The notes beneath the pieces are model-generated. The model was not told the origin of the DNA. It ran no database searches and saw only the letters and a program-made list of their open reading frames with translations. 63,466 nucleotides of DNA. Origin: a virus. The position numbers and the translations under genes are program-made. Positions 13,650 through 62,971 of the stretch are shown one piece after another. Positions within the stretch are counted from its first letter, which is position 1. Each line of letters starts with the position of its first letter. Location of the stretch: the IMG/VR virus record IMGVR_UViG_3300030060_007512, positions 1 through 63,466 of that record. The stretch is one strand, 5' to 3'.

Positions 13650-14090
13650 ATGAGTCATTGGTTATATAAAAATAAAACATTAGATGAAGCCCCTGAAGGG
13701 TATTTTGGTTTTGTGTATTTAATTACAAATCTAAAATCAGGCAGAAAGTATATTGGAAGAAAATATTTCGGCACAACTCGACGTGTAAAAGTGGCTGGTA
13801 AAAAAAGACGTAAAGTAATTAGAAAAGATTCTAATTGGAAAGAATATACTGGATCATCTAAAGAATTAAATCAAGATATAAAAACGTTAGGAATGTTGCA
13901 ATTTCGATTTGAAATTCTTATATTAGGTAGAACTAAAGGTCAAGTTAATTATTTAGAAGAAAATATACATCATAGATTTCATGTATCTTCTAGTTACGAG
14001 TTTTATAATGATTGTATAGGTCCACGAAGATTTGCTAATGTAAAGCTAGAAGAAGGCGTACATGATATTATTAAAAATATTGTTGTTTAA
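13650..14090 (+). CDS. SegE-like GIY-YIG endonuclease
   Basis: 146 residues from the ATG at 13650, one base after the upstream stop; an ATG at 13638 is in frame but overlaps that gene. The N-terminal domain has the GIY-YIG pattern as GFVYLITN...KYIGRKYF, then a Lys/Arg-rich insert, NWKEYTGSSKELNQDIKTLG and a later Glu-containing helix (NYLEENIHHRF). This resembles the putative SegE GIY-YIG family of T4-like phages. Roles could be homing, or host-DNA cutting like the related T4 endonuclease II. No separate DNA-binding domain follows. No SD is seen, so coupling to the upstream gene is likely. Confidence 0.72.
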   Translation: MSHWLYKNKTLDEAPEGYFGFVYLITNLKSGRKYIGRKYFGTTRRVKVAGKKRRKVIRKDSNWKEYTGSSKELNQDIKTLGMLQFRFEILILGRTKGQVNYLEENIHHRFHVSSSYEFYNDCIGPRRFANVKLEEGVHDIIKNIVV

Positions 14091-14098
14091 TTAAATTA

Positions 14099-14112
14099 TT
14101 TTTCTTATATTT
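14099..14112 (+). promoter_or_regulatory. Second-class promoter-like motif TTTTTCTTATATTT
   Basis: This 14-mer recurs almost exactly at 42097 and 61670, always in the gap before a non-structural gene. Here it overlaps a copy of ATATTTAT (14107-14114), so the primase/SbcDC unit may be served by both classes. Confidence 0.5.
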
Positions 14113-14114
14113 AT
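14107..14114 (+). promoter_or_regulatory. Late-promoter-like motif ATATTTAT abutting a start codon
   Basis: CTTATATTTATACT ends 3 nt before the GTG start at 14118. There is no room for an SD, so a transcript from this site would be leaderless or nearly so. Confidence 0.45.
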
Positions 14115-14117
14115 ACT

Positions 14118-15029
14118 GTGAGTTTATTGAGTTTACTAGAATCGGTTATAGGTAGGTCTAAAAAGACCTCAGGCAATAATGTTTCATTCAAATGTCCTTT
14201 ATGCAATCATTACAAGCATAAATTAGAGGTAGATTTGAATACACAATATTGGCACTGTTGGGTATGCAATTCTAAGGGAAGAAAATTATATAATCTTTTC
14301 AAAAAAATAGGTGCTACTGTAACGCAAATAAAAGACTTAAATAAATTTGTTGATTCTTATATTCCAGTAAAAGAAGAAAGAGAAGAACATGTATCATTAC
14401 CTCCTGAGTTTAAGCTTATATTAAATGGTAACAAAAATAATCCTGAGTTTAGAAATGCTGTTATGTACTTAAAAAATCGTGGTATTACTAAACATGATAT
14501 AGTAAGATATGGTATTGGTTATTGCGAAACAGGTCAATATGAAAAAATGATTATTATTCCTAGTTATGATAGAGATGGTAAATTAAATTTCTTTACAGGT
14601 AGAAGTTATTATAAAGATGCATCTTTTAAGCATAAGAATCCTAAAGTATCTAAAGATATAATAGGATTTGATTTACTTATAAACTGGAATCAACCTATCA
14701 CTATTGTAGAAGGTGCTTTCGATGCTATAGCTGTAAAACGTAACGCTATTCCGCTATTTGGTAAAATAATATTAAATAAGCTCAAGAAAGAAATAATTGA
14801 AAAGAAAGTAAAAGATATTTATATAGCTTTAGATTCTGATGCTAGAGACAAAGCGCTAGATATATGTCAATATTTTATAGAAAACGGCATTAAAGTTTAT
14901 TTAATCGAATTAGGTGATAAAGATCCTTCTGAAATCGGTTATAAGAATGTAACAACATTAAAGAGTGTAACTACAAATATTACAGGTAGTGGACTTATGA
15001 TGCAAAAATTAGGGAGCATGTTTGGATGA
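14118..15029 (+). CDS. DNA primase, DnaG type (gp61-like)
   Basis: 303 residues from a GTG start; no better ATG or SD is visible. An N-terminal CHC2-type zinc finger is seen as C26-x2-C29 ... H46-C47-x2-C50. The TOPRIM core follows, with the catalytic Glu in VEGAFDAIAV (E198) and the DxD motif in ALDSDA (D239, D241). It would make RNA primers for lagging-strand synthesis, as gp61 does with the gp41 helicase in T4. The stop overlaps the SbcD-SbcC start (ATGA). No helicase domain is attached. Confidence 0.88.
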   Translation: MSLLSLLESVIGRSKKTSGNNVSFKCPLCNHYKHKLEVDLNTQYWHCWVCNSKGRKLYNLFKKIGATVTQIKDLNKFVDSYIPVKEEREEHVSLPPEFKLILNGNKNNPEFRNAVMYLKNRGITKHDIVRYGIGYCETGQYEKMIIIPSYDRDGKLNFFTGRSYYKDASFKHKNPKVSKDIIGFDLLINWNQPITIVEGAFDAIAVKRNAIPLFGKIILNKLKKEIIEKKVKDIYIALDSDARDKALDICQYFIENGIKVYLIELGDKDPSEIGYKNVTTLKSVTTNITGSGLMMQKLGSMFG

Positions 15030-18238: not shown

Positions 18239-20341
18239 ATGATACAAAGACGAGTTGGTATACTTAAACCTGAGTTCAACGAAACGGTACTTATAAATCA
18301 AACCTCATTTGATTCAGAGTACTTTCGTCTTGATAGTATGCCTGAATCTCTCACAGCTGGTAAGAACATATTTAAGATATTTGGTAACAATCAATTACTA
18401 GCTAGTAAATCACAGATTTTAATCCAAGTAACAGATGTAAATGGAGCTGCCGTATATCACCATGTAAATAATTATGTTGATCCAGGAGGTAGAATAGTAG
18501 TAGGGATATGGATATATCCTGAAACACCGCCTGGACTAGGTAGAATTGAAATTTTAGGTGTTGCTACTCAAAGACCAGACGGTAGAAGTATACCCCAATC
18601 TTTTAGAAATCGTTATAATGTAAAGTGGTCTAAAGAACTTATTATACAACCTGACGCAATTAACGATACACCTATTATTTTCCAAAAAGTACCAGGTGTT
18701 AAAATTTTTGAAAATGAAAGAGAGTATCTTACTCAAACTTATCTTGCTGGTTCATCAATAGCAAGTCAATCAGTTGGTCAACTTTCTTATACTTATAGTG
18801 GATTTGGTGATGCAACTATAACTATGGGAAATGCTGACCCTCACGGGCTAAGGTTTTCAGCATCTATGGCGGGTGGACTGTTAACTATTGAAGAACCTAA
18901 TTTTACTCTACCTTCTAACTATTCTTTACAGCCAGGTACTATGGATAATGAGACAGGAAATTTACCTGCTTATACATCTTATATTTCTCAAGTAATAAAT
19001 TATAACACTATAAAAGTAGATCCATATGTTTTACCAGTTCAATCTGAAACTAGTGTATCTCCGTTACCAGGTAGTGGACGAAGTGTACCTGTAACTTCAA
19101 CAGTTAATTCAGCATACCCTGTGACTAGTTTCGGTCTAAGTAATTATTCTATTGAATGGCAACAAGACGCTATACTTGCAACCGGATCACTTAACTCACA
19201 ATCATTCGCAAGTATAACTATGAAAAATATTGATCCAATAGCTGGTTCAGTACATAAAATAAAAACTTATATGAAGAGTGCAGGATTTGCTGATTTTGAT
19301 TTAGTAAGTACACAACTATTACAAGAACGAGATTTATTAATTAATGTTGATTCAGACCTTGCATTCGATAGAATAGGAGATTATAAAAGTCAAGAAATAA
19401 TAAATAATTTTTGGCACAGTGAATCTGTTAATCAATCCGGTCACCATCCTTATGCTTTACATGATGATAGTATTATGATATCATCGTTAAAAATTTCAGG
19501 GAGTGGTGAGTTATCAGGCTCGTCAAATTACCCAGCATTACCATTAGCTACCGATCCTTATGTAAAAGTTTATAGTAAACCTAATATTGATTTGTTTCAA
19601 AATAATGAATACCAAATAAAATTTAGAGTTGCTAATACTGCAGAAGGATATCGACCTCCACCTTTACCAACACCAGCTGGTGTTATTGGACAAATATCTT
19701 CATCATTAATGGATGTTTATATATCAGGAAGTAATATTCCTAATTCTGATACAAGGAATTTAGGTCATAAGCTAGTATCGCTTGAAACAGAAAACGCAGC
19801 ACCTCATTTAGTAAATAGTGTAACCAATTTTATCAATATATCAACGTTAGCTAATCAAACATCTACTCCTATTAGATTGCCTTTTACTTCACCACCAACT
19901 CTTACAAATGTTACATTGCCTGCAAACTTTGATGGTAATACAACATTAGAGGTAAATCCTAATGATATGCCATTTATGGACGAAAAACTTTTAGAGGTTG
20001 GCTTTACACCGGATTTTGATACTGATGCCCATATCGTTTTTGCAGTAACTAGAGGTAATTGGTATCTTTCAGATGTATCATTAGAAGGTGCTAGTGACTT
20101 TGGTTTTACTCCTAATCATACTTTTTTTGAAATACCTATACAAACTCCGCAAGCTGATGATATTCTTGATTTTAAGTTTGAATTTTATAATAGTAGAGAT
20201 CAAATAGCAAATATATCTTTGACTACACAATCACTTGATTTTGTCGGAAGTAATCTATTTATAAGTGGTAACGATAATATACTATCAGGTTCAGTTAATA
20301 TTGGCAACGGAATTATTATGCAAGGATTTAGAGCAGACTAG
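18239..20341 (+). CDS. Virion structural protein, first gene of tail-fibre block (700 aa)
   Basis: 700 residues. The N-terminal about 150 residues form a compact beta-rich region (VGILKPEFNETVLINQ..., GRIVVGIWIYPETPPGLG) resembling proteins that precede fibre genes in marine myoviruses. The remainder is Ser/Thr/Asn-rich beta structure without a recognised fold. It begins a unit that runs with good RBSs through the two long fibre genes downstream. A role as fibre base or baseplate-fibre connector is inferred only from position. Confidence 0.65.
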   Translation: MIQRRVGILKPEFNETVLINQTSFDSEYFRLDSMPESLTAGKNIFKIFGNNQLLASKSQILIQVTDVNGAAVYHHVNNYVDPGGRIVVGIWIYPETPPGLGRIEILGVATQRPDGRSIPQSFRNRYNVKWSKELIIQPDAINDTPIIFQKVPGVKIFENEREYLTQTYLAGSSIASQSVGQLSYTYSGFGDATITMGNADPHGLRFSASMAGGLLTIEEPNFTLPSNYSLQPGTMDNETGNLPAYTSYISQVINYNTIKVDPYVLPVQSETSVSPLPGSGRSVPVTSTVNSAYPVTSFGLSNYSIEWQQDAILATGSLNSQSFASITMKNIDPIAGSVHKIKTYMKSAGFADFDLVSTQLLQERDLLINVDSDLAFDRIGDYKSQEIINNFWHSESVNQSGHHPYALHDDSIMISSLKISGSGELSGSSNYPALPLATDPYVKVYSKPNIDLFQNNEYQIKFRVANTAEGYRPPPLPTPAGVIGQISSSLMDVYISGSNIPNSDTRNLGHKLVSLETENAAPHLVNSVTNFINISTLANQTSTPIRLPFTSPPTLTNVTLPANFDGNTTLEVNPNDMPFMDEKLLEVGFTPDFDTDAHIVFAVTRGNWYLSDVSLEGASDFGFTPNHTFFEIPIQTPQADDILDFKFEFYNSRDQIANISLTTQSLDFVGSNLFISGNDNILSGSVNIGNGIIMQGFRAD

Positions 20342-36571: not shown

Positions 36572-38341
36572 ATGGCAGATAAGACTTTTTTTGGAAGACT
36601 GCAAACATTATTTTCAACTAATGCAGTAGTACGTAGAGTTGGAACAAATAAATTAAAGGTTATAGATGTAAATAAAGTTCAATCTAATAGTGGATTAGCA
36701 ACTAATAGACTCATAGATAGATATACTAAACTACACGGCTCATTAAGTAATTTAACATATAATCAATATCAAAATTATCAAGTACAAAGATTAAATTTAT
36801 TTACTGACTATGAATCGATGGATGATGATTCTATTATTTCTTCAGCATTAGATATTTATGCTGATGAATCCACTATAAAAAATGAATTCGATCAAGTATT
36901 AAGTATAAATTGTAAAGATCAAGATATTGAAAAAATATTACATAATTTATTCTATGATGTACTTAATATTGAATTTAATCTATGGCCTTGGATACGTAAT
37001 ATGTGTAAGTATGGTGACTTTTACTTAAAGTTAGATATTACTGAAAAATTAGGTGTAACAAATGCACAACCAATTTCAACTTATGAAATGGTAAGAGAAG
37101 AAGGCACCGACCCTGCTAAACCTGAGTATGTTAAATTTGTGCATGATATTTCATTAGCTGGTCAATCATCTAGTGGAGGTCAAACAACTAGAAAAGATTT
37201 TGAAAACTATGAAGTAGCTCACTTTAGATTATTGTCTGATACTAACTTTTTACCTTATGGTAAATCAATGCTTGAAGGTGCTAGAAAAGTTTGGAAACAA
37301 TTAACTCTTATGGAAGATGCTATGATGATTCATAGAATTATGCGTGCACCTGAAAAGAGAGTATTTAAGATAGATATAGGTAATATACCTCCTAATGAAG
37401 TTGATAACTATATGAGACAGGTTATCGATAAAATGAAAAAAACTCCTTATATAGACCAAACAACTGGTGAATATAATCTTAAGTTTAATATGCAAAATAT
37501 GCTAGAAGATTTTTACTTACCTGTAAGAGGTGGTCAGTCAGGTACTGAAATAGATTCATTATCAGGTATGGAATTTGGTGGTATTGAAGATGTTGATTAT
37601 CTTAAAAATAAAATATTTGCAGGGCTAAAAATACCTAAAGCATTTTTAGGGTATGATGAAACTACAGAAGGTAAAGCTACATTAGCTGCTGAAGATGTAA
37701 GATTTGCAAGAACTATAGAACGTATACAAAGAATAGTAACTTCTGAACTTACTAAAATTGCTATAGTACATCTATACTCACAAGGATATACTGATGAAAA
37801 ATTAGTTGATTTTAGTTTAGGATTAACTAACTCTTCAACTATTTACCAACAAGAAAAGATATCACTTTGGAAAGAAAAAGTTGATCTTGCTAGAGATATG
37901 AAAGATGGTAAAATGATGTCTGAAGAGTGGGTATATAAAAATATCTTTAATATGTCAGATCAAGAAATTGAAAAAGAAAGAGCGAGTGTTATTGAAGATG
38001 TTAAGCAAGCATTTAGAAAAACTAAAATTGAAGACGAAGGTGAAGATCCAGCTGCTGATCCAAAAATACAGCCAGATGATGATGAACCAACTGAATCATC
38101 AATTAACCCTGTTGGAAGACCACCTGAAGGTACTAAATATGGTACACAAGATCATGTTAGAGGTTCAGATCCTACAGGAAATGGCACGCGTATAAGAGAT
38201 ATTAAGAATAGAGATAGAAGCATAAAACATACATATAGAGAGAATATCGACTCTTTACTTAAAAGTATAGACAAAAACAAAAAACCATCATTATTAAGTG
38301 AAAATAATTTGATAGATGATGATTCTTTGCAAACAAGTTGA
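36572..38341 (+). CDS. gp20: Portal protein (gp20)
   Basis: 589 residues (T4 gp20 is 524). The family features are seen: NRLIDRYTKLHGSLSNL-type N-terminus, DYESMDDDSIISSALDIYADE, APEKRVFKIDIGNIPP (stem), DVDYLKNKIFAGLKIPKAFLG and TLAAEDVRFARTIERIQ. The C-terminal 80 residues are acidic, then basic and flexible, longer than in T4. It forms the dodecameric vertex ring through which gp17 packages DNA. AAGGAG site; 12 nt after the terminase. Confidence 0.95.
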   Translation: MADKTFFGRLQTLFSTNAVVRRVGTNKLKVIDVNKVQSNSGLATNRLIDRYTKLHGSLSNLTYNQYQNYQVQRLNLFTDYESMDDDSIISSALDIYADESTIKNEFDQVLSINCKDQDIEKILHNLFYDVLNIEFNLWPWIRNMCKYGDFYLKLDITEKLGVTNAQPISTYEMVREEGTDPAKPEYVKFVHDISLAGQSSSGGQTTRKDFENYEVAHFRLLSDTNFLPYGKSMLEGARKVWKQLTLMEDAMMIHRIMRAPEKRVFKIDIGNIPPNEVDNYMRQVIDKMKKTPYIDQTTGEYNLKFNMQNMLEDFYLPVRGGQSGTEIDSLSGMEFGGIEDVDYLKNKIFAGLKIPKAFLGYDETTEGKATLAAEDVRFARTIERIQRIVTSELTKIAIVHLYSQGYTDEKLVDFSLGLTNSSTIYQQEKISLWKEKVDLARDMKDGKMMSEEWVYKNIFNMSDQEIEKERASVIEDVKQAFRKTKIEDEGEDPAADPKIQPDDDEPTESSINPVGRPPEGTKYGTQDHVRGSDPTGNGTRIRDIKNRDRSIKHTYRENIDSLLKSIDKNKKPSLLSENNLIDDDSLQTS

Positions 38342-39674: not shown

Positions 39675-39800
39675 ATGAGCAAAGATATTATTAATGAAAA
39701 TATTACTATCGAAGAAATGCGAAAAATTATTCGCACCGAACTTGCTCGTATATTTTTCGATTTATACCGAAAACGTAGCACGTGGGAGAGATTAGGATGA
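39675..39800 (+). CDS. Short overlooked ORF (41 aa), coupled to prohead protease
   Basis: An ATG immediately after the upstream stop opens a 41-residue frame (MSKDIINENITIEEMRKIIR...) ending in a TGA that overlaps the protease ATG (ATGA). It fills the gap exactly. The middle (EEMRKIIRTELARIFF) is the same kind of amphipathic helix seen at the N-termini of genes at 433 and 41129. Its tight fit on both sides argues for a real gene. Function unknown. Confidence 0.55.
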   Translation: MSKDIINENITIEEMRKIIRTELARIFFDLYRKRSTWERLG

Positions 39801-40426
39801 GTAAAACATTACTTATAGATTATACACCATTTGATATATCACCACAAATGATTATTGAATCTGAACAACAGAATAATGGTAGAGTTATTGTGTCAGGTGT
39901 GTTGCAACGTGCTGGTGCGAAAAATCAAAACGGAAGAGTATACCCAAAAGATATTCTAATGAGAGAAGTAAACGAATATAAAAAAGTTCAAATATCTGAA
40001 AGAAGAGCTTTAGGTGAATTAGATCACCCTGATACTTCTGTAGTTAATTTAGCTAACGCTTCTCATAATATATTAGATGTATGGTGGAACGGAGATGATG
40101 TAATGGGTAAAGTTGAAGTTCTTTCAACACCATCAGGTAATATACTTAAAGAGCTATTAAGATCAGGTATTAAACTTGGTATATCATCTAGAGGACTTGG
40201 TTCAGTAAAACAAATTAGTGAAGATACTGTTGCAGTACAAAATGATTTTGAATTAGTATGCTGGGATTTCGTTTCAAATCCATCAACACATGGAGCTTTC
40301 ATGAAGCCTATGAATGAATCAGTTGGCAGTAAAATTAAAAAAGATAAATTTTTCAAAGTAAATAATATTATTAGTGAAATGCTTTGCGACTTAACTTGCA
40401 AATGTGCATTACCTAATCAGGAGTAG
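39797..40426 (+). CDS. gp21: Prohead protease (gp21)
   Basis: 209 residues from ATG 39797, which follows GGGAG at 8 nt and overlaps the preceding TGA; a GTG at 39782 in frame is less likely. T4-type (S80/U9) prohead protease signatures: GRVYP, GELDHPD with catalytic H77, the LGISSRGLGS motif with catalytic Ser (S130 or S131), and CWDFVSNPST. It cleaves scaffold and capsid N-termini during maturation. Confidence 0.93.
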   Translation: MSKTLLIDYTPFDISPQMIIESEQQNNGRVIVSGVLQRAGAKNQNGRVYPKDILMREVNEYKKVQISERRALGELDHPDTSVVNLANASHNILDVWWNGDDVMGKVEVLSTPSGNILKELLRSGIKLGISSRGLGSVKQISEDTVAVQNDFELVCWDFVSNPSTHGAFMKPMNESVGSKIKKDKFFKVNNIISEMLCDLTCKCALPNQE

Positions 40427-42073: not shown

Positions 42074-42096
42074 TATTTAGTTGGTTAATTGTAGTT

Positions 42097-42110
42097 TTTT
42101 TCTTATATTA
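42097..42110 (+). promoter_or_regulatory. Second-class promoter-like motif TTTTTCTTATATTA
   Basis: Located 35 nt before the bS21 ATG. The 14-mer is identical to that at 61670, and a TTG occurs at the same distance upstream in both (42089 and 61662). Confidence 0.5.
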
Positions 42111-42145
42111 AGGTAATTAATAATCGTTTAACTAAAATTATAAAA

Positions 42146-42505
42146 ATGCGAAAAAATTATGAAGGAGGCCAAGGCCCTCCTAAAAAAGCCTTTCGAAGAA
42201 AAAGATGGTCTAGGCAAGACTTTTATGTACCAGGTAATCCGAGAGGAGTTAAAGTACCTGACAATTCACCAGCAGCTTTAGAAAAAAGTTTACGTTATCT
42301 TAAACGTCAAATGAAAGATGCTGATATCGTTGGTAAACTTAGAGCTAATCAAGAGTATACTAAACCTTCAGCTAAACGTAGAAAACAGATGCAAGATGCT
42401 GTTAGAAAGCAACAGTTGAGAGATAAAATTAGTAAACAGTATTGGGATAATTTTACATGGATAGTCCCACCATCTAAAAATACTGGACCTGAATTACCAT
42501 TTTAA
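42146..42505 (+). CDS. rpsU: Phage-encoded ribosomal protein bS21
   Basis: 119 residues. Residues about 35-95 align along their length with bacterial bS21: VKVPDNSPAALEKSLRYLKR, then IVGKLRANQEYTKPSAKRRK and a basic helix, matching the family pattern of KVxxN, ALRRFKR, VLxExRRREYYEKPSxKRKR. Extra N-terminal (about 36 residues, basic) and C-terminal (about 20 residues, ending PPSKNTGPELPF) extensions are present. bS21 sits next to the anti-SD of 16S rRNA and affects initiation. It has its own promoter-like motif and terminator, and no SD of its own. Confidence 0.85.
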   Translation: MRKNYEGGQGPPKKAFRRKRWSRQDFYVPGNPRGVKVPDNSPAALEKSLRYLKRQMKDADIVGKLRANQEYTKPSAKRRKQMQDAVRKQQLRDKISKQYWDNFTWIVPPSKNTGPELPF

Positions 42506-42511
42506 TAAAAG

Positions 42512-42538
42512 AAACCCGAAAATTTTTCGGGTTTTTTT
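42512..42538 (+). terminator. Rho-independent terminator after bS21
   Basis: AAACCCGAAA - ATT - TTTCGGGTTT, a 10-bp perfect stem, followed by a T-run. It isolates the bS21 gene from the scaffold/capsid unit. Confidence 0.9.
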
Positions 42539-42559: not shown

Positions 42560-42567
42560 ATATTTAT
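42560..42567 (+). promoter_or_regulatory. Late-promoter-like motif ATATTTAT (distal, capsid unit)
   Basis: GTATATATTTATATGTG just after the terminator, 106 nt before the scaffold ATG. With the proximal copy at 42654 it gives the capsid unit two candidate promoters. Confidence 0.5.
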
Positions 42568-42580
42568 ATGTGTACAAAAT

Positions 42581-42673: not shown

Positions 42674-43672
42674 ATGTCAAAAGACTTGTTAAAAGAAGCA
42701 ATTGCTGATGCAAAAGCTGTTAGAGAAACTGCTATCGCTAATGCTAAACTTGCTCTAGAAGAAGCTTTCACACCTAAACTTCAATCTATGTTATCTGCAA
42801 AATTGCAAGAAGATGATATGGAAGATGAAGAAGAAGACGTTGATGTTGCAGAAATGGAACATGGCGAGGAAGAAGCTGAAGAAGGTATGCATGCCGACGA
42901 TGAAACAGAAGAAGGAATGCATGGCGACGATGAAGCTGAAGAAGGTATGAGAGAAGAAGACGAAGAGGAAGAAGAAGGTATGAGAGAAGAGGACGAAGAG
43001 GAAGCTGAAGAGGGAATGCGTGAAGAAGATGAAGAGGAAGAGGGTGACCTTGACCTTGAATCTATCATTAGAGAACTTGAAGGCGAAGATGAAGAAGAAG
43101 CTGAAGAAGGAATGCGTGAGCAATCTGACTCAAGCGATCTCGGAAAAGGCGATAACAAAATGGATCAAGCGTCTGGTAAAGACCAAGACGATCCAGGTAA
43201 AGGTAAGTTAAAAGAAGAAGAAGAAGGTGATGATGAAGAAATCGATTTAGACGAAGTAATCAGATCACTAACTGAAGAAGATGAAGACGAAGAAGGTATG
43301 GAAGAAGAGGAAGATAAAGATGCTGAACTAGAAGAAGCATATAATACTATCAGATCTCTTAAATCTACACTTCAAGAAGTTAATCTTCTAAATGCTAAAT
43401 TATTATTCTCAAACAAATTGTTTAAGGGTAATAACTTAAGTGAATCTCAAAAGATGAAAGTTATCGAAACATTCGATAGAGCATCTAATTTGAGAGAAGT
43501 TAAGTTAGTATATTCTACTTTAGCTGAATCATTTACCGGTAAGTCAGTTTCAAAGAAAGGCTTAACAGAAGGATTCGCTTCTAGAAAATCAAACTCAACA
43601 GCTCCGAAAGGACAAATTGTTGAATCAAATGGCATGGCAAATCGTATGAAGCGATTAGCTGGCTTATTGTAA
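42674..43672 (+). CDS. gp22: Prohead scaffold/core protein (gp22-like)
   Basis: 332 residues. Order: a helical N-terminus, a very acidic low-complexity region (residues about 48-230) with repeats of the type EEGMREEDEEE, and a helical C-terminus ending NRMKRLAGLL, as gp22 homologues often do. Scaffold identity rests on position between protease gp21 and capsid gp23, acidity and the C-terminus. The many Glu sites would suit the gp21 protease, which cuts after Glu. RBS TTGGAGA. Confidence 0.8.
   Translation: MSKDLLKEAIADAKAVRETAIANAKLALEEAFTPKLQSMLSAKLQEDDMEDEEEDVDVAEMEHGEEEAEEGMHADDETEEGMHGDDEAEEGMREEDEEEEEGMREEDEEEAEEGMREEDEEEEGDLDLESIIRELEGEDEEEAEEGMREQSDSSDLGKGDNKMDQASGKDQDDPGKGKLKEEEEGDDEEIDLDEVIRSLTEEDEDEEGMEEEEDKDAELEEAYNTIRSLKSTLQEVNLLNAKLLFSNKLFKGNNLSESQKMKVIETFDRASNLREVKLVYSTLAESFTGKSVSKKGLTEGFASRKSNSTAPKGQIVESNGMANRMKRLAGLL
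42812..43130 (+). repeat. Glu/Asp-rich codon repeats in scaffold gene
   Basis: GAA/GAG/GAT-rich tandem degenerate units encode GMHxDDExEE and GMREEDEEE about 5-6 times. They explain long open frames in other phases and strands here, none of which is a gene. Confidence 0.7.
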
Positions 43673-43709: not shown

Positions 43710-45278
43710 ATGTCAAACATTTCAAATTTATTAAACGATGCTCAATCAACTTACAGACAACAGTTGAATGAGACAAAAAAATACGTATCTAAATGGGAAA
43801 AGACTGGATTACTTGAAGGAATCGATCACGATTACGAAAAGCATAACACTGCAATCTTATTAGAAAATCAGGCAAGAGAACTTGTAACTGAAAACTCTAA
43901 AATTGGTGGTGCTAGCTCAGAAGAGTGGAACGGTGTTGCTTTACCATTAGTTAGACGTATTTTCGGCGAAATCTTTGCAAAAGAATTCGTTAGTGTACAA
44001 CCAATGAACCTTCCATCTGGTCTAGTATTTTATCTAGATTTCAAGTATGGTACAGGTGGTGCTAATGACAGACAAGTTAGCGGAACAGACGTGATGGGTA
44101 ATACTTCATCATCAAGCTCACCAACAGGTGGTCTTTACGGTGATGGTAACGGAACTGGTGATAAAGCAGGATACACGCTTAAAAAGCAAAGTACTACTTT
44201 AGCTGCTGGTGCATTTAGTTCACAAACAGCTGCTAACGGTGATGGTGTTGAAATCACAATATCTAATCTTAACGCTGATTTAGATTTAGATTTAGTTGGT
44301 GCTATCGTAATTACTTCAGCTTCAGTTTTAGTTAACGAAGTTGGAACAATTACAGGTTCAACTAATGATACTAAAATCATGTTTAAGAACAACAAAGGTG
44401 ATGCGATGAGAGCTGGTGATATCTTAACTGTAAATTACTACTTGAACACTACTACTGCTGCTTCAAGAGGTGACTTCGAAGATTCAACTGCAACTCCTGC
44501 GGGATCTGTAAATGATGGATCTGATGATATCGGTATTCCAGAAATGAATGTTCAATTGAGACAAGAAGCTCTTGTTGCAAAGACTAGAAAACTAAAAGTT
44601 GTTTGGTCACCTGAATTTGCTCAAGACTTGAACGCTTATCACTCAATTGACGCAGAAGCAGAATTAACATCAATGCTATCAGAGTACATCTCGATGGAAA
44701 TCGATATGGAAATTTTAGCAATGTTAGATAGAGCTGCTGATACAGTTTCTGGTAATGTTGGTTCATTTACTTTAGAATCTGCTGCTAATGGATATGCTCC
44801 TACAGTATCTAATGCAACTGCAAGATACGACTTAGGAACATGGGCACAAACTTTAGGCTATCAAATGCAAAAAGTTTCTAACAATATCCATAAGTTAACT
44901 ATGAGAGGTGGTGCTAACTTTGCTGTAGTATCTCCAGAGATAGCTGCAATTATCGAATCTATTCCAGGATTCTCAGCTGATACTGATGGTACTGCTACTC
45001 AGTTTGCTGCAGGTGTAACTAAAGTAGGTGCTTTTGCAAATAGATATACTATTTACAAGAATCCTTACAGACCAACTGCTGCTGGTATCTTAATGGGCTT
45101 CAGAGGTAATCAATTCTTAGAAACTGGTGCTGTTTATGCTCCATATATTCCATTAATTATGACTCCTCTAGTGTATGACCCAACTAACTTCACTCCAAGA
45201 AAAGGTGTGATGACTAGATACGCGAAGAAAGTTGTAAGACCTGAATTCTACGGAAAAGTTAACGTAACAATTAACTAA
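43710..45278 (+). CDS. gp23: Major capsid protein (gp23)
   Basis: 522 residues, as in T4 gp23 (521). HK97-type capsid of the T4 family: N-terminal TGLLEGIDHDYEKHNTAILLENQ, VALPLVRRIFGEIFAKEFVSVQPM, then the inserted Ser/Thr/Gly-rich region, KLKVVWSPEFAQDLNAYHSID, and C-terminal PFxxxYAPYIPL-type sequence with YDPTNFTPRKGVMTRYAKK. The N-terminal part is expected to be removed by gp21. Strong AGGAGAG site and, downstream, a terminator. Confidence 0.97.
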   Translation: MSNISNLLNDAQSTYRQQLNETKKYVSKWEKTGLLEGIDHDYEKHNTAILLENQARELVTENSKIGGASSEEWNGVALPLVRRIFGEIFAKEFVSVQPMNLPSGLVFYLDFKYGTGGANDRQVSGTDVMGNTSSSSSPTGGLYGDGNGTGDKAGYTLKKQSTTLAAGAFSSQTAANGDGVEITISNLNADLDLDLVGAIVITSASVLVNEVGTITGSTNDTKIMFKNNKGDAMRAGDILTVNYYLNTTTAASRGDFEDSTATPAGSVNDGSDDIGIPEMNVQLRQEALVAKTRKLKVVWSPEFAQDLNAYHSIDAEAELTSMLSEYISMEIDMEILAMLDRAADTVSGNVGSFTLESAANGYAPTVSNATARYDLGTWAQTLGYQMQKVSNNIHKLTMRGGANFAVVSPEIAAIIESIPGFSADTDGTATQFAAGVTKVGAFANRYTIYKNPYRPTAAGILMGFRGNQFLETGAVYAPYIPLIMTPLVYDPTNFTPRKGVMTRYAKKVVRPEFYGKVNVTIN

Positions 45279-61038: not shown

Positions 61039-61653
61039 ATGGCTGAAAAAGATAACAGTAAAGAATATAAACATGAATCGATACACGGAGATCCTTCTGC
61101 TGAACAATCTATGACTGGTCTACAATTCTTTACTGAAGGCGATGAGTCTACTGATTTAGGTCATAGAGAAGAGTATGAAAATAGAAAAGGTCTCGCAACT
61201 ACAAATATATTACCACCTCCTATAAATGGACCTATCCCTATAAGTGATTTATTAGTTGAAAGTAGAAAGCGTTCAATTATATTACGATATACTGGTGAGA
61301 TTAGAGAAGTTGCACCTGATGTAGCTGCAGAATTTGAAGAAGAATTAGCTAAAGGAATTTATTTTTTAATTAATTTTTACTGGCCACAACAACAAAAAAA
61401 TAGAAAAACTGTTGAAATGAGAAAGCGTGAAGTAATTGATATAGCAGTTGCTCAAGCGCCTGTAGAATTAAGAAAAAATGTTGCTGAATGGTTTTCTTAT
61501 CAAGTTTCTCAAGGTCCAGAGTCAAATGAACCGCAATCAACAAGAAGATTGCGTAAAGATCCTGATTTATATAAATCACCTTTGACAGCACCGGTAGTTA
61601 ATGATACGGATAATAGGAGTCTAGAGAGTGATTCTGATTATTCTAGAGGTTAG
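61039..61653 (+). CDS. Baseplate-region protein, unknown (204 aa)
   Basis: 204 residues. Disordered, acidic ends flank a central alpha/beta part (VESRKRSIILRYTGEIREV, EEELAKGIYFLINFYW). AAGGAG site, 10 nt after the hub gene. It is the last gene of the tail unit. A virion role is inferred; no family recognised. Confidence 0.62.
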   Translation: MAEKDNSKEYKHESIHGDPSAEQSMTGLQFFTEGDESTDLGHREEYENRKGLATTNILPPPINGPIPISDLLVESRKRSIILRYTGEIREVAPDVAAEFEEELAKGIYFLINFYWPQQQKNRKTVEMRKREVIDIAVAQAPVELRKNVAEWFSYQVSQGPESNEPQSTRRLRKDPDLYKSPLTAPVVNDTDNRSLESDSDYSRG

Positions 61654-61669
61654 TTGTTTATTTGAATAG

Positions 61670-61683
61670 TTTTTCTTATATTA
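61670..61683 (+). promoter_or_regulatory. Second-class promoter-like motif TTTTTCTTATATTA
   Basis: It lies 22 nt before the polymerase ATG and is identical over 14 nt to the site before bS21; TTG is at 61662-61664, the same spacing as there. Confidence 0.5.
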
Positions 61684-61705
61684 GGTAAAGTTTCAAAAGG
61701 TTATA

Positions 61706-62971
61706 ATGATTGTAGATAATGATAAAATACTATCTCAACTAAAAGTTGAGTATAATAATTCTGAATCAATAGTAATACCTATATACAGTGATATTCGTAA
61801 ACATAGAGTAATTAACAAATTATCACTTTTGTATATTTATATTATTAATTCGAAAAAGACTTACTGTATTCTTGTAAATCATTCTGATAAAATCTACAAT
61901 ATCGATAGCTTAAGCTTTATTAATAATGATAGTATTAAATATACTTATAGTACAGGTATAAAAAATTCTATAAATATTGATGCGTTATACTATCTTACAA
62001 ATTTATGTAATATTAATAAAGAAGAGTTATATACTGAATCACATAAGTTTTTTTATAATAAGTATTGGAAGCTTGATAATATAAATGATGTTATACCAGT
62101 CTATAAACATTTAGAGTATTGCAATAAAATAAAAGAAAAAACATTACAAGTAATTAAAAATAAAAATTTACCTGGGTTTACTGAATATAATAAAAAAGTG
62201 ATACCTGCTTTTAGAAGTATTGAAAATAATGGACTTGCAACTTATAACGGCGTTGAATTTACTAAATATAATTTATGGACAACTACAGGTAGACCAAGTA
62301 ATTCATTTAATGGAATAAACTATGCAGCGTTAAATAAAGAAGATGGTACAAGAGAAAAATATATTAGTAGATTCGATAAAGGTAAATTAGTAGAGTTTGA
62401 TTTCGATGCATATCATTTAAGATTAATTGCAAAAATGATTAACTATGATTTGCCTAAAACTTCTATGCATACTTATTTAGGTAAATATTATTTTGGAAAA
62501 GATCTTATAACTAAAGATGAGTATAATGAATCTAAAGCAGTATCGTTCAAAATACTATATGGTGGTGTTCCTAAAGAGTTTGAAAATATTCCATTTTTTA
62601 GTAAAGTAAAGAGCTATATTTTTGAACTTTGGGATATTTATATTAGTAAAGGTTATGTAGAAACACCTATATTCAAAAGAAAGGTTCATGCAGAGAATCT
62701 CAAAGATAGAGATATTAAACCTCAAACATTATTTAATTATCTAATTCAATCTATGGAAACTGAACAGAATGTTTTAATAATTGAGTCGATACAGAATATG
62801 TTGAAAGATTATCAAAGTAAGCTTGTATTATATACTTATGATGCGCTATTATTTGATATTCACCCTAATGAAATATCTTTATTAAATAATATAAAAGATA
62901 CAATGATTTACCCAGTAAAATGTAAAACGGGACATAATTATAATAAAATGAATCTTTATACCTTTGAGTAG
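61706..62971 (+). CDS. Short divergent family-A DNA polymerase
   Basis: 421 residues. The polymerase core is recognisable: TTTGRPSNSFNGINYAALN; motif A EFDFDAYHLR with D232; motif B KAVSFKILYGG (K277, F281, Y285); motif C YTYDALLFD with D379. The motif-A Glu (steric gate, E710 in E. coli Pol I) is His (H237), and motif C lacks the usual HDE context. The N-terminal 190 residues show no 3'-5' exonuclease motifs that I can see. T4 uses a family-B polymerase, so this differs. AAGG site. Confidence 0.85.
   Translation: MIVDNDKILSQLKVEYNNSESIVIPIYSDIRKHRVINKLSLLYIYIINSKKTYCILVNHSDKIYNIDSLSFINNDSIKYTYSTGIKNSINIDALYYLTNLCNINKEELYTESHKFFYNKYWKLDNINDVIPVYKHLEYCNKIKEKTLQVIKNKNLPGFTEYNKKVIPAFRSIENNGLATYNGVEFTKYNLWTTTGRPSNSFNGINYAALNKEDGTREKYISRFDKGKLVEFDFDAYHLRLIAKMINYDLPKTSMHTYLGKYYFGKDLITKDEYNESKAVSFKILYGGVPKEFENIPFFSKVKSYIFELWDIYISKGYVETPIFKRKVHAENLKDRDIKPQTLFNYLIQSMETEQNVLIIESIQNMLKDYQSKLVLYTYDALLFDIHPNEISLLNNIKDTMIYPVKCKTGHNYNKMNLYTFE

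Follow-up and report, generated by a model that had tools for sequence, protein, structure and literature searches.

In a lineage of T4-like phages encoding ribosomal protein bS21, I found that genes behind a late-type promoter motif are mostly led by a Shine-Dalgarno (SD) sequence, while genes behind an early-type motif mostly lack one, as does the bS21 gene itself. Therefore, the rule by which start sites are read may be switched in the middle of infection. It is an evenly balanced proposition that the phage bS21 acts in a Bacteroidota host to switch translation from SD-less early genes to SD-led late genes. A little more tentatively, this T4-like lineage may turn SD-blind Bacteroidota ribosomes into SD-reading ones by means of a bS21 that leaves the anti-SD sequence exposed, and may have evolved two sets of start signals.

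The window (the whole stretch of DNA analysed here, 63,466 nucleotides) comes from IMG/VR and represents part of the genome of a T4-like myovirus. It has 32% G+C and nearly all genes on the plus strand, where all features described below lie. Its head cluster comprises the genes for portal protein gp20, prohead protease, bS21, major capsid protein gp23, and PhoH, and has the Portal_T4, Peptidase_S77, and Gp23 matches of a T4-like myovirus. The portal gene (36572..38341; PF07230, 1.3e-78) has an SD, AAGGAG, in its leader. The protease gene (39782..40426) matches Peptidase_S77. Another head-region gene (42674..43672) has TTGGAGA before its ATG, and the gp23 gene (43710..45278; PF07068, 3.1e-70) has AGGAGA in its leader. 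The bS21 gene lies about 1.2 kb upstream of gp23. Searches across the window for tRNAs and Rfam families found none.

The original prediction was that a protein of 119 residues aligns along the whole of bacterial bS21 and has extra extensions at both ends. Pfam, PHROG, and solved ribosome structures agree with this. The ORF (42146..42505) matches PF01165 (Ribosomal_S21) with 36.9 bits (cut-off 27; E = 2.9e-9), residues 45-89 being aligned on positions 10-54 of the 55-position profile. The PHROG match is "ribosomal protein S21", and the bS21 chains of ribosome structures match residues 35-95, which roughly delimit the core. Judged by these matches, the ORF is a genuine bS21 with N- and C-terminal extensions. 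The net charge of the protein is about +18. The N-terminal extension (residues 1-34) is basic and is kept in relatives. The C-terminal tail (about residues 96-119; 25-30 extra residues) contains W..IV in the window protein and recurs in relatives, often ending with WTxIxxGxA. A loss of the basic residues that contact rRNA would have spoken against the prediction; K53, R54, K57, K73, and P74 of the conserved basic/KP core are all retained.

It was also predicted that the gene has its own promoter-like motif, in common with primase and polymerase genes, and a strong terminator, and both were found. The promoter is a two-box motif of the early/middle type, GTTG-N18-CTTATATT (42080..42109), recognized by its enrichment on the coding strand. 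In the window, GTTG-N15-22-CTTATATT occurs four times on the coding strand and never on the other strand (0.4 in shuffled sequences). One site is at 13895, and the others precede a DnaG_N-like primase gene (14082..15029; its hit is slightly below the Pfam cut-off), the DNA polymerase A gene (DNA_pol_A; 61653..62971), and bS21. The primase and polymerase genes are SD-less. The counts on the coding and other strands are 10 and 0 in contig G001, 7 and 0 in Flavobacterium phage immuto, and 0 and 0 in phage Mel-JY01, with 0-0.4 in shuffled sequences. The TTG and TATATT boxes resemble the -33 TTG and -7 TAnnTTTG of Bacteroidota sigmaA promoters, TAnnTTTG being the flavobacterial sigmaA consensus (PMC9723704). 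The bS21 unit is closed by an intrinsic terminator (42508..42538) with a stem of 14 pairs and a T-run; the region contains four terminator-like sites, where 0.8 would be expected. In many relatives (e.g., L033, L045, and L061), a hairpin with a T-run overlaps the spacer of the bS21 promoter, immediately upstream of the -10-like box; the terminator of the upstream head gene might in this way insulate bS21 from late read-through. Downstream of the unit and before the next head gene lies a late-type motif, TATTTATA (42561..42568), with 23 occurrences on the coding strand and 7 on the other strand across the window (10.5 in shuffled sequences). This motif often precedes head and tail genes across the whole family and is probably a late promoter.

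The bS21 leader (42110..42145) is SD-less, A-rich, and unstructured (SD energy, +2.1 kcal/mol; fold z-score, 0.16), and folding around the start codon of the window gene revealed no unusual structure. The leader contains an element, GTTTAACTAAAA (42126..42137), which is present once in the window and is kept before bS21 in much of the clade, even where the bS21 proteins share only about 40% identity. It was not found elsewhere in the scanned genomes. A strong SD on the bS21 gene, as in host-style autoregulation, is missing. Rather, the SD-like sequence GAAGGAGG is present only within the ORF, as part of a small hairpin, AGGAGG...CCTCCT (42161..42181). It is located 15-22 nt into the ORF, where no in-frame start follows at the distance of an SD, and it occurs in close relatives only. 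It might serve for feedback by ribosomes with a free anti-SD, or might merely reflect the EGG..PP codons.

An SD was scored when GGAG, GAGG, GGGG, or AAGGA was present at -17 to -4 relative to the first ATG. By this rule, 58% of the window genes have an SD, compared with about 6% of in-frame internal ATGs as a control. Phages of Bacteroidia are nearly SD-free (0-7%), as in immuto (2%), Cellulophaga phage phi14:2 (2/29), and Flavobacterium phage 11b (0/38); the value for genome G009 is also 2%. None of the 37 non-redundant bS21 leaders has an SD, on contigs whose average SD fraction is about 53% (p = 1.6e-12 for 36 of them, by a statistic that ignores kinship).

The genes starting within 90 nt after an early-type motif, [CG]TTATATT, were compared with those after the late-type motif in five genomes (the window, G001, G002, G003, and G006). 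An SD was found in 11 of the 68 genes after the early-type motif (16%) and in 45 of the 64 after the late-type motif (70%; p = 2.4e-10). The split persists at equal minimum distances from promoter to start (p < 1e-4). After this distance matching and the comparison with late promoters, short leaders alone are insufficient to account for the SD-less promoter-proximal genes.

In each of three longer relatives, a scan revealed a single SD-poor block, a contiguous run of 35-37 short genes, with SDs on 0/36 genes in G003, 2/35 in G004, and 4/37 in G005 (permutation, 1/300, 0/300, and 0/300, respectively). Pooled, 6 of the 108 block genes have an SD versus 184/386 (48%) elsewhere (p = 4.6e-18). Genes internal to operons in the block are likewise SD-less, and the bS21 gene lies outside the block. 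In the start contexts of block genes, A peaks at -13 to -11 and at -3; G peaks at -11 to -7 in those of the remaining genes. The A peaks at -13 to -11 are close to those of immuto and G009; A-3, A-6, A-12, and A-13 are the positions named by McNutt et al. (PMC9976891). G002 has a weaker trend (4/30; permutation, 44/300). The scan found no significant block in the fragments G001, G006, and G008, and the early block is absent from the window and G001, both of which are fragments. No such block was found in Escherichia coli phage T6, and that of Pelagibacter phage Mosig is short and not significant. An SD-poor early block as a general T4 trait was rejected on these two phages. In Mel-JY01 (L011, PP395634.1), 43% of the genes with homologues in the window have an SD versus 19% of the rest, a similar but weaker split.

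The bS21 of Flavobacterium johnsoniae, through Tyr54 stacked on A1534, steers the 3' tail of 16S rRNA into a pocket of bS18 and bS6, and ribosomes with dC or Y54A bS21, as well as those without bS21, prefer strong-SD mRNAs (PMC9976891). In the set examined by Chen et al., all bS21s, whether of phages or of bacteria, were reported to have an aromatic residue at position 54 (PMC9723584). I located the equivalent position by counting from the conserved KP (KP+13). In the window bS21, it is Arg87. Thus, the aromatic residue that marks anti-SD hiding of the Bacteroidia type is absent. The window clade has Arg at this position, or Ala or Asn in a few lineages. Among bS21 phages, the median SD fraction is 0.18 in Tyr54 lineages and 0.53 in the others (p = 5e-4). 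In the cellular Bacteroidota sampled, Bacteroidia-like bS21s have Tyr or His at position 54, and those of other classes have Arg. SD starts account for 5/127 in aromatic-54 genomes and 43/212 in Arg-54 genomes (p = 1e-5); for this pooled test, residues were read by eye (Tyr in G147 and G183; Arg in G141, G095, G137, G021, and G201), G112, which has His, was placed with the aromatic-54 genomes, and G019 was excluded. An absolute rule equating the loss of Tyr54 with SD use was rejected. A sister group (L077, L080, and L082), and also L089, have Tyr at position 54 yet use SDs (0.25-0.62); therefore, the loss of Tyr54 is not required. The bS21s of L077, L080, and L082 have Tyr54 in an ARYIQ-like context and a short N-terminal extension. 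In L195 (LR756501.1, a 735-kb phage), the bS21 gene at 20001 encodes Tyr54 and is itself preceded by a strong SD, AAAGGAGG, an arrangement like that of host rpsU and the reverse of that in the window.

Two scans of IMG/VR yielded over 80 bS21 loci. Where a locus holds both genes, bS21 usually lies about 1.1-2.3 kb before gp23, and many contigs share the bS21 gene, its location upstream of gp23, and the lack of an SD in its leader. A tree of gp23 places 42 of its 57 rows in the window clade (support, 98/98) and immuto, Mel-JY01, and the uncultured huge phage LR756508 outside this clade. A tblastn search of cultured phages with the window bS21 gave no match, and searches with other family members led to Mel-JY01 and to Pseudomonas and Pelagibacter phages. 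The single hit among bacterial genomes, in a Saprospiraceae MAG, was rejected as a phage-type relative, as it looks cellular and has Tyr54.

The suggestion that a bS21 phylogeny would identify the host failed, because the phage bS21s form a clade of their own apart from host bS21s; with few columns and long branches, the tree does not name a donor. The two-box promoter common with immuto and the start contexts of the SD-less blocks in G003-G005 are of host type. They point to Bacteroidota, which I consider probable as the host phylum from the phage sequences. Mel-JY01 is as close to the window as immuto by gp23 and terminase. Two or three bS21 genes are present in some Bacteroidota genomes (G054, G105, G113, G120, G135, and G157), a possible sign of ribosome heterogeneity in the hosts too.

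The switch might work as follows. At the beginning, unmodified host ribosomes, with the anti-SD held in the bS21/bS18/bS6 pocket, would translate the SD-less A-rich early leaders and that of bS21. The early genes and bS21 would be driven by the host-type TTG/TATATT promoter, insulated from the late head operons. The phage bS21 would then compete its way onto 30S subunits; the bS21 of phage HTVC008M can enter E. coli ribosomes (PMC6375957). With Arg at the Tyr54 position and the N- and C-terminal arms, stacking on A1534 would be lost and the 3' tail of 16S rRNA would be freed. Finally, the modified ribosomes would prefer SD-led late phage mRNAs over SD-less host mRNAs. I infer the incorporation, the unmasking, and the temporal order, and several points count against such a switch. 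The putative timing of bS21 is taken from its promoter class, and published bS21 phages express bS21 late (PMC9723584). In F. johnsoniae, only strong SDs gain from the loss of bS21 (PMC9976891); the phage SDs are mostly AAGGAG/GGAGA, and therefore the unmasking would have to be more complete. Host rpsU, whose leader often has a strong SD, would be expected to profit from a freed anti-SD as well. The host, too, is a presumed one, and no bacterial genome carrying the phage was found (gp23 in 0 of 395 Bacteroidota genomes).

It is rather unlikely that SD use simply follows an SD-using host (an Arg-54 Bacteroidota, a cyanobacterium, or other) and that the phage bS21 only supplies or replaces a loosely bound protein. 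Such an explanation gains from Arg-54 being normal in many non-Bacteroidia Bacteroidota, with about 20% SD starts, from Mel-JY01, a close relative with bS21, SDs, and Microcystis as the recorded host, from the failure of the bS21 phylogeny to place the donor, and from SD use in the Tyr54 sister group. However, it predicts neither the SD-less blocks (6/108) within SD-rich genomes, nor the split between early and late promoters, nor an SD-less bS21 leader in every lineage. T6, which infects an SD-using host, has no such block, and the two-box promoter is present in a Flavobacterium phage but absent from Mel-JY01.

Improbable, too, is a direct selection of phage mRNAs by bS21 with the anti-SD left in place, through the N-terminal arm (xPGxPxGVKVP) or the C-terminal arm (WTxIxxGxA) near the mRNA exit channel, perhaps together with the leader element. 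Both arms are conserved in the clade, as is GTTTAACTAAAA in the bS21 leaders, the action of Francisella bS21-2 depends on the leader (reviewed in PMC10931766), and the main divergence between phage and host bS21s lies near the mRNA according to Chen et al. (PMC9723584). What the late genes have in common is the SD and not GTTTAACTAAAA, which the scan of the genomes located before bS21 and nowhere else, so that it cannot mark late genes. A host shut-off, in which the phage bS21 poisons initiation on host mRNAs without positive selection of phage mRNAs, is very improbable. E. coli ribosomes with a pelagiphage bS21 are indeed only about 5% active in vitro, but that assay used a foreign ribosome, as its authors note (PMC6375957), and a shut-off leaves the SD distribution unexplained.

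Why many aquatic phages have a bS21 gene has a published answer, the preferential translation of phage mRNAs, which lacked a molecular rule. The genomes analysed here suggest a rule that is readable from sequence and testable in F. johnsoniae with SD-led and SD-less leaders. If the switch is true, a virus uses specialised ribosomes as a time switch, and nature has, in the change from Tyr54 to Arg, its own equivalent of the Y54A mutant made in the laboratory. As a whole, the original prediction is partly supported. Its idea that bS21 re-tunes initiation at the anti-SD is plausible, although published in general form (PMC6375957, PMC9723584, PMC9976891). Phage bS21 was known, as it said; it placed the novelty in the control and the extensions and missed the SD pattern and the Arg at position 54, where the novelty lies. 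In the literature searched, whose partial coverage is no proof of priority, neither the combination of SD-led late genes with SD-less early genes nor a non-aromatic residue 54 in presumed Bacteroidota phages was found to be described.

Immuto (Immutovirus), 49.6% identical to the window phage in gp23 and 57.2% in terminase, has the same two-box promoter, T4-like head genes, and PhoH. Unlike the window phage, it is essentially SD-free, and no bS21 was found in it. Mel-JY01 (47.5% in gp23 and 58.8% in terminase) has some SDs and a bS21 in the same head region, but this bS21 is short, without long extensions, and has Lys at position 54; the phage lacks the TTG/TATATT promoter, and its recorded host is a cyanobacterium. 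The Pelagibacter phages HTVC008M and Mosig also have a phage bS21, but belong to another T4-like lineage with Pelagibacter hosts. The freshwater Bacteroidetes huge phages of Chen et al. (2022) are myoviruses with bS21 among the terminase, portal, protease, and capsid genes; Bacteroidetes hosts were predicted, and bS21 was proposed to favour phage transcripts (PMC9723584). In those phages, bS21 is on the strand opposite to the head genes and has an aromatic residue 54, whereas in the window it is on the same strand and has Arg. The window also differs in the own promoter and terminator of bS21, its extensions, and the SD-led late genes; the searched parts of the text of Chen et al. contain no SD analysis of phage genes (PMC9723584). 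The bS21 of F. johnsoniae (McNutt et al., 2023; PMC9976891) belongs to the same family, and the mechanism of anti-SD hiding comes from that work. In that host, rpsU alone has a strong SD and other genes have none (PMC9976891); the window phage has the reverse.
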